From assembly GCA_902785065.1 (NCBI GenBank), contig CACZXH010000040.1, forward strand, positions 1 to 56,587: a stretch of DNA of 56,587 nucleotides, read 5' to 3'. The translations under genes were made by a program, and so were the position numbers. The notes below the pieces were generated by a model that worked only from the letters and a program-made list of their open reading frames with translations, had not been told where the DNA came from and ran no database searches. Shown piece by piece: positions 4,880 through 56,587 of the stretch. The stretch comes from an uncultured Bacteroidia bacterium (GTDB lineage: Bacteria; Bacteroidota; Bacteroidia; Bacteroidales; UBA932). Positions within the stretch are counted from its first letter, which is position 1, and each line of letters opens with the position of its first letter.

Positions 4880-4958
4880 GTCATTTCGAGCGAAGCCCGA
4901 AGCGAAGTCAATTCTGTCATTTCGAGCGAAGCCCGAAGGACGAAGTCGAGAAATCTGC
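4879..4958. repeat. Two copies of the TTTCGAGCGAAG dispersed repeat
   Basis: Two direct copies starting at 4879 and 4915, both reading TGTCATTTCGAGCGAAGCCC and then diverging. The second ends GTCGAGAAATCT and directly abuts the fabG stop codon. The same element recurs at 12464-12491 (inverted) and twice inside aroDA (55952-56027). It fills the whole space between the clpB terminator and fabG. Confidence 0.8.
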
Positions 4959-11769: not shown

Positions 11770-12465
11770 ATGCGTAAAAACGCCATCTGGTACATTCCCT
11801 GCGCCTTTTTCCTGGTCGCCTGCGTCCTGAATCTCATCGGATGCATCCAAGGGACGAACCTGTCCGATACAGTGAAACCGGCCCTCCTGCCGTTGCTTTC
11901 CGCTACCACGCTGGCCTTTCTCCTGGGCCGGGACGTGCCCGACTACCGGCAAGTCGGGCTTCTCGTCACCGCACAATTGCTCGGCTGCACGGGCGACGTC
12001 CTCCTTATCCCGGACGGCTTCGCTTTCTTCGTCGCCGGCATCGCGGCCTTCCTCGTCGGCCATCTCTTCTACATGTGCCTCTTCGGCGGGTTGTCCTGGA
12101 AAGGCCTTAACGTGTGGCAGTGGATTCTCTCATTTTTCGCTATGGTCGCCATCGTGCTGGGCCTGGTGAAAGTCATCGGCATTGAGGGCCCGTTGTTCTG
12201 GCCCATGCTCATGTACGGCTTTATCCTGATGCTGCTCATCTTCAGCGCCCTTGCTGGCGTGCTCCGCATGCCCCGCGGCAGCCGCACGACCTGGTGGATC
12301 CTCCTCGGCGGCGCCCTTCTCTTCGCTTTTTCCGATTCCTGCATCGCGATGGGCACCTTCGGGGTGATGACCTTCCCTCTGCGCCACTTCGTGGTCATGA
12401 TCACCTACCTGGCCGCGCAGTCGCTGCTGGCGGTCGGGGGAATTCGTCTCATTCTGGGGAAATAG
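11770..12465 (+). CDS. YhhN/TMEM86-family membrane protein (lysoplasmalogenase-like)
   Basis: Integral membrane protein of 231 residues with about eight hydrophobic segments. YhhN-family landmarks: KPALLPLLSAT, LLGCTGDVLLI, FLVGHLFYM and LGGALLFAFSDS near the C-terminus. Animal members hydrolyse the vinyl-ether bond of lysoplasmalogens; bacterial function is less settled. Divergent from the metal ATPase gene. The weak -7-like TAACTTGC sits about 25 nt before the ATG. Its stop codon TAG overlaps a dispersed repeat by 2 nt. Confidence 0.85.
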   Translation: MRKNAIWYIPCAFFLVACVLNLIGCIQGTNLSDTVKPALLPLLSATTLAFLLGRDVPDYRQVGLLVTAQLLGCTGDVLLIPDGFAFFVAGIAAFLVGHLFYMCLFGGLSWKGLNVWQWILSFFAMVAIVLGLVKVIGIEGPLFWPMLMYGFILMLLIFSALAGVLRMPRGSRTTWWILLGGALLFAFSDSCIAMGTFGVMTFPLRHFVVMITYLAAQSLLAVGGIRLILGK

Positions 12466-12491
12466 ATTTCTCGACTTCGCTCGAAATGACA
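12464..12491. repeat. TTTCGAGCGAAG dispersed repeat between convergent genes
   Basis: Inverted orientation: AGATTTCTCGACTTCGCTCG then AAATGACA. It fills the entire space between the YhhN stop and the dtd stop and can form an imperfect hairpin, so it may act as the shared 3' end. Confidence 0.75.
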
Positions 12492-53753: not shown

Positions 53754-54806
53754 ATGGAAAAGGAGTACAGCGTCATCATGGATGGGAAAGTGGCCGGCCG
53801 GGTGGTCGGCCGCGAACGGCTGGGGGATATCACCCCGCTGGTGGCGGAAGAGTCCGAAGTGTTCGTCGTTTATGATGCGAACGCGGCGGAGGTGGCAGCC
53901 GAGGTGATCGAGGCCGTGCCATGCGTGCGGGGATGCATCGCTCTCGAGACGTCCGAGGAGGACAAGTCCATGGACACGGTTCTGCTCATCGCCCACTCGC
54001 TGCTGGAGGCGGGGGCGTCCCGGAAGGCGCTGGTGCTCGCTGTGGGCGGCGGGATCACGACGGACCTCGCGGGATTCGCTGCATCCATTTACAAACGAGG
54101 TATACGGTATGCCAATGTTCCGACCACCCTGCTCGCCCAGGTCGATGCGGCCGTAGGCGGCAAGACGGGGGTGAATTTCGACGACTATAAGAACATGCTG
54201 GGCGTGATTGTCCAGCCCGTCTTCACGTTCGTGTGCGCCGATGCGCTGCGCACGCTGCCGCACCGCGATTTCCTGTCCGGGGCTGCGGAGTTGCTGAAGA
54301 CCTTCCTGATCGAGAACGAAGACGACCACTACGGCCGCGCGGTGCGCTGGCTGGCCGAAGGCGGCGCCGCGGCCGAGCTCCAGGAGCTCGCGCTCGCCGC
54401 CGCCGGCGTGAAGGCCGCCATTGTCTCGCGCGACCCGTTCGAGGCAGGCGAACGCCGGAAGCTCAACCTGGGCCACACGTTCGCCCATGCCATCGAGCAC
54501 GAGGCGCTCCGGCGGGGGGACGACATCACGCATGGCGAAGCCGTCGCGATGGGCATCGTCCTCGCCGCCCGGCTCTCCGACGCGCTGGGCGTGTCGGCCG
54601 GCCTGGAGGCCCGCCTCGCGGCGGACTTCGCCGCCGCCGGCCTCCCCACCCAGGCCCCCTACCCGGTGGAAACCCTCGCCGGCGCGATGGATAAGGACAA
54701 AAAAGCCGAGGGCGCCCTCGTGCATTTCGTCCTTGCGGAGCGCATCGGCTCCGTCCTCATCCGCGACCTGACCGTCGCAGAAGCGCTTAAAGCATTGACA
54801 ATATGA
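53754..54806 (+). CDS. aroB: 3-dehydroquinate synthase
   Basis: Second shikimate-pathway step, converting DAHP to 3-dehydroquinate, NAD and metal dependent. 350 residues. Motifs: VLAVGGGITTDLAGFAASIYKRG (NAD site), PTTLLAQVDAAVGGKTGVNF, the metal ligands in SGAAELLKTFLIENED, NLGHTFAHAIEH and THGEAVAMGI. Its stop overlaps the ATG of the aroDA fusion (ATGA at 54803-54806), so the two proteins are translationally coupled and carry consecutive pathway steps. Confidence 0.95.
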   Translation: MEKEYSVIMDGKVAGRVVGRERLGDITPLVAEESEVFVVYDANAAEVAAEVIEAVPCVRGCIALETSEEDKSMDTVLLIAHSLLEAGASRKALVLAVGGGITTDLAGFAASIYKRGIRYANVPTTLLAQVDAAVGGKTGVNFDDYKNMLGVIVQPVFTFVCADALRTLPHRDFLSGAAELLKTFLIENEDDHYGRAVRWLAEGGAAAELQELALAAAGVKAAIVSRDPFEAGERRKLNLGHTFAHAIEHEALRRGDDITHGEAVAMGIVLAARLSDALGVSAGLEARLAADFAAAGLPTQAPYPVETLAGAMDKDKKAEGALVHFVLAERIGSVLIRDLTVAEALKALTI

Positions 54807-56587
54807 TTTGTACATCCATACAAGGCAAGACGCTGGAGGAGATCCTCGGGATCCTGGAAAGCGGGGAAGTGGAGATGGCGGAAATCCGGCTGGACCTCTG
54901 CGACCTGGACGAGGAGGAAATCGAAGAGCTCTTCACGCAGTCCGACGTACCGCTCATCGCGACCTGCCGGATTGCCAGCCTCGCGCAGCGCGTCGCCGCG
55001 GAAGAAGACCTGCTGGACGATGCCGGCAAGGTGCTCTCCGAGCAGGGGCTCTATGCCTCCCAGCCGCGCAAGGGCCGCAATCCGGCCGAGGAACTCGCTG
55101 AAAACCAACTGCTCAAGGCCATTGAGGCCGGCGCCAAATATGTGGACCTGGAAGTGGAGGCCCCGCCCATGATGGGCCGCAAGATCCGCCAGGCCTGCCA
55201 GGAATACGGCACCATGCTCATCCGCTCGTTCCACGATTTCGAAGGAACGCCGCCGGAAGCCACGCTGCTGTCCCTCCTGGAAAAAGGCCGACGCTTCGGG
55301 GGTGAAGTGGTCAAAATCGTGACCACGGCCACTTGCAAGGCCGATGTGGACCGCGTCCTGGCCCTCTACCGGGAGGCCGAGCCCGGTACGTTGGTGGCGT
55401 TCTGCATGGGCCCTGAAGGCCGGGAGTCCCGGCTGGATGCCCTCAAGCAAGGTGCGCCCTTTACCTACGCCTGCCTGACGGCGGACGAGGCCACTGCCCC
55501 GGGCCAGTGGACCGCCGCCGAAATGGACGAAGCCGTGTACGGCGATTTCCGCTTCATCGGCACGGACGAAACGCTCGAGATGCCGGCGTCCAAGAGCTTC
55601 GCGCAGCGGGCAATCGTTGCCGCCGCGCTCGCCCAGGGTACCTCGCACCTGACCGGCTATTCCCCCTGCGGGGACAACGAATCGGCCCTCGCCGCCGCCC
55701 GGAAACTGGGCGCGCGGGTGACCGTGAAGGGCTCCGAGTTGGAAATCACCGGCATCGGCGCCTTCGAGAACTGCCTGTCCATCAGCGAGATGCCGGTGGG
55801 CGAGTCGGGTTTCCTCACCCGGATGCTTATCCCGGTCCTGTCGGTCGTCGCCGACGGCCCGGTCCGCGTGACGGGCGAGAAGACCCTCCTCGGCCGGCCC
55901 CTCGCCGGGGCGCATGACATCATGGCCTCGTTCGGGGTGCGGCTGGTTCCGGAGATTTCTCCACTCGCTCCGCTCGGTCGAAATGACAAGGATTGTTCTG
56001 TCATTTCGAGCGAAGTCGAGAAATCTCATGTCGCTCGCAAGAGCGACTGTTATATCCCGCTCACGGTCAAGGGTCCGCTGGTCCCGGGCCGGGCTGATGT
56101 GTCCGGCAAGGGCGGCTCGCAGCTCATTTCCGGCCTGCTGGCGGCCCTGCCGCTCGCCGGGAATCGGTCTACGGTCTATGTCCATGACCCCCGCAGCATC
56201 CCTTACATGTTCATTACCGTGGACGTGCTCCGCAAGTTCGGCGTCGAGATCGGCTCGGAGATGGAGGGTGGCGACGATTTCCTGCAGACGCAGGACTGGA
56301 CCCTGTGCACCGGCCTGACCTTCAAGATGCGCGGCCAGCAGCATTACCGTGCGGCTGACTTCCGCATCGAAGGCGACTGGTCCGGCGCCGCGAACTTCCT
56401 CGTGGCCGGCGCCATCTTCGGCGACGTGGAGGTGGAAGGGCTGGACACCCAGTCCCTCCAGGCCGACATTTCCATCATGGACATCCTCATGGACGCCGGG
56501 GCGAGCATGTCCCAGCTGGAAGGCGACACGCCCACGACCGGGCCCATCCATGTGGCCCGCGCGCCGCTCTGCGCCTTCGAAACCGAC
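54803..56587 (+). CDS. aroDA: Fused type I 3-dehydroquinate dehydratase and EPSP synthase (3' end missing)
   Basis: Open for 595 codons to the window edge. Residues about 1-225 are type I dehydroquinase: MAEIRLDLCDL, His in RSFHDFEGTP, Schiff-base Lys in GEVVKIVTTA. From about residue 245 the EPSP synthase domain starts (MPASKSFAQRAIVAAALAQG), with GESGFLTRMLIPVLSV, GRPLAGAHDIMASFGVR, GKGGSQLISGLLAALPLAG and GDWSGAANFLVAGAI. A 32-codon insertion (55952-56047) made of inverted dispersed repeats lies between FGVRLVP and CYIPLTVKGPL without breaking the frame. About 100 further residues are expected beyond the window. Catalyses steps 3 and 6 of the shikimate pathway; the shikimate dehydrogenase and kinase are not in view. 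Confidence 0.92.
   Translation, partial: MICTSIQGKTLEEILGILESGEVEMAEIRLDLCDLDEEEIEELFTQSDVPLIATCRIASLAQRVAAEEDLLDDAGKVLSEQGLYASQPRKGRNPAEELAENQLLKAIEAGAKYVDLEVEAPPMMGRKIRQACQEYGTMLIRSFHDFEGTPPEATLLSLLEKGRRFGGEVVKIVTTATCKADVDRVLALYREAEPGTLVAFCMGPEGRESRLDALKQGAPFTYACLTADEATAPGQWTAAEMDEAVYGDFRFIGTDETLEMPASKSFAQRAIVAAALAQGTSHLTGYSPCGDNESALAAARKLGARVTVKGSELEITGIGAFENCLSISEMPVGESGFLTRMLIPVLSVVADGPVRVTGEKTLLGRPLAGAHDIMASFGVRLVPEISPLAPLGRNDKDCSVISSEVEKSHVARKSDCYIPLTVKGPLVPGRADVSGKGGSQLISGLLAALPLAGNRSTVYVHDPRSIPYMFITVDVLRKFGVEIGSEMEGGDDFLQTQDWTLCTGLTFKMRGQQHYRAADFRIEGDWSGAANFLVAGAIFGDVEVEGLDTQSLQADISIMDILMDAGASMSQLEGDTPTTGPIHVARAPLCAFETD
55952..56047. repeat. In-frame insertion made of dispersed palindromic repeats
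   Basis: Arm 1 (55952-55988) and arm 2 (55999-56027) are inverted copies of the TTTCGAGCGAAG element; then GTCGCTC GCAA GAGCGAC (56030-56047) adds a perfect 7-bp hairpin with a GNRA loop. Total 96 bp, exactly 32 codons, encoding a polar peptide that includes VISSEVEKSH. Confidence 0.8.

Follow-up and report, generated by a model that had tools for sequence, protein, structure and literature searches.

What is an inverted pair of dispersed repeats doing inside an EPSP synthase, and how did it come to lie there in frame? The question is raised by a 56,587-nt stretch of DNA from an uncultured Bacteroidia bacterium (the window, which is the whole of contig C40), at the end of which a gene encodes a fusion of AroD (type I 3-dehydroquinase) with AroA (EPSP synthase). 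Pfam places DHquinase_I at 3-244 of the fusion and EPSP_synthase in two stretches, and the open reading frame (ORF) stays open up to the end of the window. As a first-pass annotation of the sequence had proposed, two inverted repeat units lie in frame within the EPSP synthase half; with their spacer they occupy 55952-56027 (76 nt), in the loop between the strand ending in GVRL and the strand starting with IPLTV. Our analyses make it very probable that this is a head-to-head, TGTC-tagged pair resembling repetitive extragenic palindromes (REPs), and that it was inserted, with the reading frame kept, into a variable surface loop of the domain (Table 1).

The evidence begins with copies of the repeat elsewhere. 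The right-hand unit matches a minus-strand copy in the window letter for letter (28/28; 12464-12491), and 100 shuffles of the window yielded no match to it at three or fewer mismatches. Scanning the genome (2.74 Mb in 50 contigs) with the pattern TCATTTCGA-N4..30-GAGAAATC gave 47 + 38 = 85 matches, a few of them nested, compared with 0 + 0 for the reversed pattern. The first-pass annotation had listed three intergenic copies; those at 12464-12491 and 4915-4956 stand, the second one at 4.9 kb proved incomplete, and the repeat is spread genome-wide. All 82 non-nested copies carry the tag TGTC, of which the search pattern had fixed TC but not TG. In 16 of them TTTCG is followed by AC (or a pyrimidine pair); these form one class, the other 66 a second, and the pair in the window consists of one unit from each. 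A unit has AT at its base (part of the pattern), a 5-bp stem with a bulge and a centre of at least 7 nt; where two units lie close together (gap <150 nt, fetched loci) they are head to head in 8/8 cases. In a sample of the genus the pattern was found in 46 of 101 genomes (25 of 47 near-complete genomes), at 1 to 85 matches per genome; the sister genome G003 has 15. The copy at 12464-12491 shares two bases with the stop codon, TAG, of the ORF upstream of it (11770-12465).

These counts bear on the possibility that the segment is an ordinary variable loop resembling the repeat by chance or through shared codon use. The loop is indeed variable: between fixed anchors it spans 15 to 49 amino acids in 89 genus loci, the window's own included (101 genomes searched, 93 matched and 90 loci fetched, with G002, G020 and G048 omitted as fragments; the G087 locus stops short of the loop), and long loops without repeat units also occur. 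An identity without parallel in the shuffles and 85 copies against a control of zero nevertheless leave chance resemblance with next to no credit. 'Insertion' and 'variable loop' are both true descriptions, because the loop naturally varies in length, and the loop of equal length and unrelated sequence in all relatives, which the first-pass annotation had set against its own proposal, is not what the 89 loci contain.

Table 1. Features of the window discussed in the text
Feature	Position	Strand	Remarks
AroD (type I 3-dehydroquinase)-AroA (EPSP synthase) fusion	54803..56587	+	Pfam; 3' end cut by contig end
Left repeat unit, class with AC after TTTCG	55952..55988	-	Minus-strand reading TGTCATTTCGACC...GAGAAATCTC; translation EISPLAPLGRND
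Spacer, 10 nt, separating the two units	55989..55998	+	
Right repeat unit TGTCATTTCGAGCGAAGTCGAGAAATCTC	55999..56027	+	Translated within SVISSEVEKS
81-bp stretch replacing 18 bp of sister L173 (net +21 codons)	55955..56035	+	
GNRA-type hairpin, not counted as repeat	56030..56047	+	Native RKxDC codons form loop and 3' arm
Incomplete intergenic copy, head intact, tail different	4880..4914	+	
Intergenic repeat copy, extended centre	4915..4956	+	
Copy identical to right unit	12464..12491	-	Overlaps upstream ORF end

Extent, folding and translation of the insert

Compared with the sister L012/L173, the window has 81 bp (55955-56035) in place of 18 bp, a net gain of 63 bp or 21 codons, rather than the 96 bp and 32 codons given in the first-pass annotation, which had taken in native RKSD codons (56036-56047). 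The GNRA-type hairpin that it had counted with the insert is indeed perfect (z -3.7, equally good folding in 0/200 shuffles), but we rejected its inclusion in the element because RKxDC codons, which uninserted sisters have too, make up its loop and 3' arm. The units show no sign of coding-friendly design. Five of six frames are open in each unit, as in 730 (right) and 928 (left) of 5000 composition shuffles, and four of six in the whole pair, which was reached in 173/5000.

Between the window and L172, a relative with the same pair, the insert differs by five synonymous changes and one nonsynonymous change, which supports its being translated, and the fusion gene is open through the insert with purifying selection on both sides. 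AlphaFold2 predicts an intact, otherwise confident EPSP synthase fold in which the insert is a disordered loop; judged from this model, the protein seems to tolerate the inserted loop, in line with what had first been supposed of the peptide.

All six changes fall in the spacer and tail, and the repeat cores are unchanged, a pattern that would suit a repeat kept for a role of its DNA or RNA (an RNA hairpin, protein binding or replication) with the peptide incidental. The pair also folds strongly (-22.2 kcal/mol, where shuffles averaged -9.5; z -6.0, DNA parameters), and single units, left or right, fold no better than shuffles. Such a role is nonetheless improbable: half units, remnants and losses in close relatives show the repeat to be dispensable, and an Rfam search of the fusion gene gave 0 matches at E up to 1.

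The insert among relatives

Named relatives were taken from a scan of species genomes, 80 of 405 being kept, many of them from ruminants. The alignment of their AroA bears out the proposal of an insertion, which is missing in close sisters and present in L172 (CAMNGM010000011.1, 30.7 kb), whose gene shares 93% nucleotide identity with that of the window. L175 combines the left unit with a rearranged right half, L176 has the left unit only, L177 has a degenerate right unit, and no unit is present in L173, L174, L185 or L178-L182; the gene is open in every named close relative compared (L172-L182 and L185). Short-read assemblies break at repeats, and the contig ends about 540 bp downstream of the insert, both of which would fit a misassembly or chimera at the repeat in this metagenome assembly. 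This is very unlikely because a second assembly, the independent record L172, has the same insert in a gene that is 7% diverged; parts of the insert also stand at the same codon in L175 and L176.

Our preferred reading is therefore that of a REP-like pair inserted in frame. The repeat would spread as DNA via some mobiliser, and most of its insertions in genes would be lost, those surviving being open, a multiple of three in length and situated in a loop. The peptide would then be a tolerated, harmless by-product that may be reduced to one unit or a remnant, or be lost altogether. The series in close relatives, from pair through one unit and remnant to empty site, makes the gain, decay and cost of a protein-coding palindrome measurable.

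Several observations weigh against this reading. The right unit alone is a weak hairpin. No target duplication is recognisable, because the loops of sisters differ in sequence. The selection test on the insert is weak because the stretch is short (27 codons, six changes). On a tree of 25 AroD-AroA genes, from which the loop columns had been removed, the carriers are scattered among non-carriers, with at least six state changes for seven carriers. In topology tests, whose groups were named from the insert and in which 9 of 22 inner branches are weak, forcing the window and L172 together as a clade gave an approximately unbiased P-value (p-AU) of 0.02, and forcing all five TTTCGA carriers gave 1e-43. 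Given the scattered carriers and the p-AU of 0.02, simple descent explains the pattern poorly.

The same data bear on a history with one ancestral insertion in the TTTCGA clade, from which all present states would have arisen by descent, deletion and erosion, with no further insertion, conversion or exchange. Such a history gains from the left unit starting at the same codon in the window, L172, L175 and L176, and from the ARK that the carriers have in common downstream of the insert; most sisters without an insert read [GSN]RK there. It has to contend with the interleaving of carriers and non-carriers, with a left unit that is identical between the window and L176 over 37 nt in genes only 83% identical (one change relative to L175, at 82.5%), and with the common ExxPxxxRK loop of several non-carriers, which looks ancestral and not like a deletion scar. 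We regard this history as possible, if rather doubtful. The left unit may have been re-inserted, or may have arrived by conversion from the genomic pool or by recombinational exchange; a constraint on its DNA would be a further explanation.

Other proteins and other repeats in the same loop

Is AroA alone in carrying the repeat? ORFs contained 38 of 89 pattern rows (7 rows being nested doubles), as placed by a crude gene caller that set several rows at over-extended starts. Among 19 other ORFs with an internal unit, nine matched a Pfam family and ten had no match. In MnmG (L086:758-2680) the unit is in frame, and the gene of sister G003 is without residues 237-259, the site being empty. Cysteinyl-tRNA synthetase (CysRS; L063:435-1910) carries a unit between its catalytic and DALR domains, where G003 has other codons, and IspG (L073:1036-2304) carries one in a segment that the solved enzyme lacks. 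Further units lie in a major facilitator superfamily transporter, an outer membrane efflux protein and a kelch protein, in the linkers of a sigma-54 response regulator and a GH43 protein, and just before the domain of a THUMP-like protein. REP-decorated proteins are thus extended to AroA, MnmG, CysRS and IspG of uncultured Bacteroidales, and the peptides VISSEVEKS, RFLDFARND and CHFERSREI of predicted proteins are explained as translated repeats.

Repeats of other kinds occupy the same AroA loop elsewhere. G019 (= L208) and L209 have a head-to-head pair of CCGG-type units there, tagged CGTC in three of four units and TGTC in the fourth, and the loop DNA of G019 matches 46 sites of the G019 genome, its own site among them. 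In G024 the loop contains CGTC units (21 matches in its own genome, itself included). The unit-like stretch in the loop of G039 was not counted as a proven repeat, having a single other, partial match in its own genome. By eye, units were found in 4/89 genus loci, window included (loop DNA inspected for loops of at least 28 amino acids, 15 loci), and in 7/81 loops when the window is added to the named set, which overlaps with the genus sample; L195 may be an eighth. Across 129 distinct genes (171 rows before duplicates and rows lacking anchors were dropped), a script counted 11 units within 10,104 nt of loop versus 10 in 253,770 nt elsewhere, an enrichment of about 28-fold in which sister genes are not independent and some non-loop units may be ordinary codons. 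Without the TTTCGA units, five remained in the loop, from two lineages (about 13-fold). The script was written after the loops had been inspected, and it missed G039.

At least two entries into the AroA loop, by different repeat families (TTTCGA in the window, CCGG in G019/L209), have taken place, and G024 is likely a third. Tentatively, and with the odds rather against it, the loop could be a repeated landing site in this genus, reached independently by at least two and perhaps four TGTC/CGTC-type stem families, with the same unit re-inserted, or copied from the genomic pool, at the identical codon in one clade. If so, an essential enzyme would carry a steadily renewed, translated selfish segment.

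Other palindromes were encountered in these genes. The longer AroA loops of a sister clade (42 amino acids; L186-L188, L190, L191, L194, L196, L198, L199, L232 and others) have one or two short TAACA..TGTTA hairpins. Searches with GTAACA-N3..5-TGTTAC gave 0 matches in five genomes (control 0 to 4 per genome), and the looser TAACAANNNTGTTA gave 1 to 11 per genome versus 0 to 3 for the control; given these counts, the hairpins were not accepted as a dispersed family. In L114 (G091) another loop of the EPSP synthase domain, after GCLKDYP, contains a QPGNDGKDQPGDDGKDQPGND stretch in which the script called two CGTC-type units, and the AroD/AroA linker of L023 (G068; = L179) carries an in-frame insertion containing short palindromes (CGACGACAAAAAC...). 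Three consecutive CCGG-type units with 38-bp spacing are found at G019:C26:50948-51052. Upstream of the fusion gene in the window, aroB (3-dehydroquinate synthase; 53754-54806) overlaps its start by 4 nt.

Comparison with known repeat systems

A miniature inverted-repeat transposable element has terminal inverted repeats and a target site duplication; in the window pair the outermost ten bases at the two ends complement each other without a mismatch, and the differing sister loops make no duplication recognisable. Short dispersed units in inverted pairs are shared with the REPs and bacterial interspersed mosaic elements linked to REP-associated tyrosine transposases (RAYTs), and REPs also occur in frame inside the transposase gene itself in RAYT subclass 2.4 (PMC6006769). 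RAYT-linked REPs, however, have a GT[AG]G foot and a RAYT gene bordered by its own repeat, whereas the foot here is TGTC. The genome has two Y1_Tnp (IS200-like transposase) genes, L009:539-1982 (contig C15) and L010:1216-2389 (contig C36), each with a long hairpin family of its own on either side, a REPtron-like layout. A RAYT was rejected as mobiliser, both Y1_Tnp genes being flanked by these hairpins and not by the TGTC-tagged repeat; within about 1.5 kb of the two genes there was no complete unit, only a lone 9-mer TCATTTCGA in L009, in a transposase check that covered Y1_Tnp only.

The likeness to Rickettsia palindromic elements (RPEs) noted at the outset holds in that a dispersed palindrome lies in frame in a conserved protein and is absent in close sisters. 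RPEs are palindromes of 105-146 bp in Rickettsia (Ogata et al. 2000, 2002, as cited in PMC2229807 and PMC3733652); the window pair, of 76 bp, with another sequence and in Bacteroidales, is not an RPE. A Rickettsia guanylate kinase carrying an insert is active with altered substrate affinity (PMC2229807), and a mild effect of the AroA insert is therefore possible.

The closest resemblance is to the CGTC super-family of REPs, to which RPE-4 and RPE-6 of R. conorii have been assigned (PMC3733652). These repeats, known from five phyla, Bacteroidetes included, have a CGTC or TGTC tag and an AT stem base and form mostly head-to-head dimers, often of unlike units; intragenic dimers add 20-30 residues, and no link to a transposase gene is described (Di Nocera et al. 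2013, PMC3733652). The window repeat shares the tag, the AT base, the head-to-head dimers and the intragenic units, and, as far as Y1_Tnp is concerned, the absence of a transposase link. The four families described have stems of 8-9 bp and loops of 4-5 nt (PMC3733652), unlike the bulged 5-bp stem and wider centre of the window unit; the units of G019 and G024, with 8-bp stems, come closer. Because its stem is not of the described kind, we describe the window repeat as CGTC-like without assigning it to the super-family. A literature search of partial coverage, on the repeat letters, intragenic REPs in Bacteroidales and palindromes in EPSP synthase, returned no report of the AroA case. REP-decorated proteins and RPEs are already known; the interest lies in finding different repeat families in a single enzyme loop.
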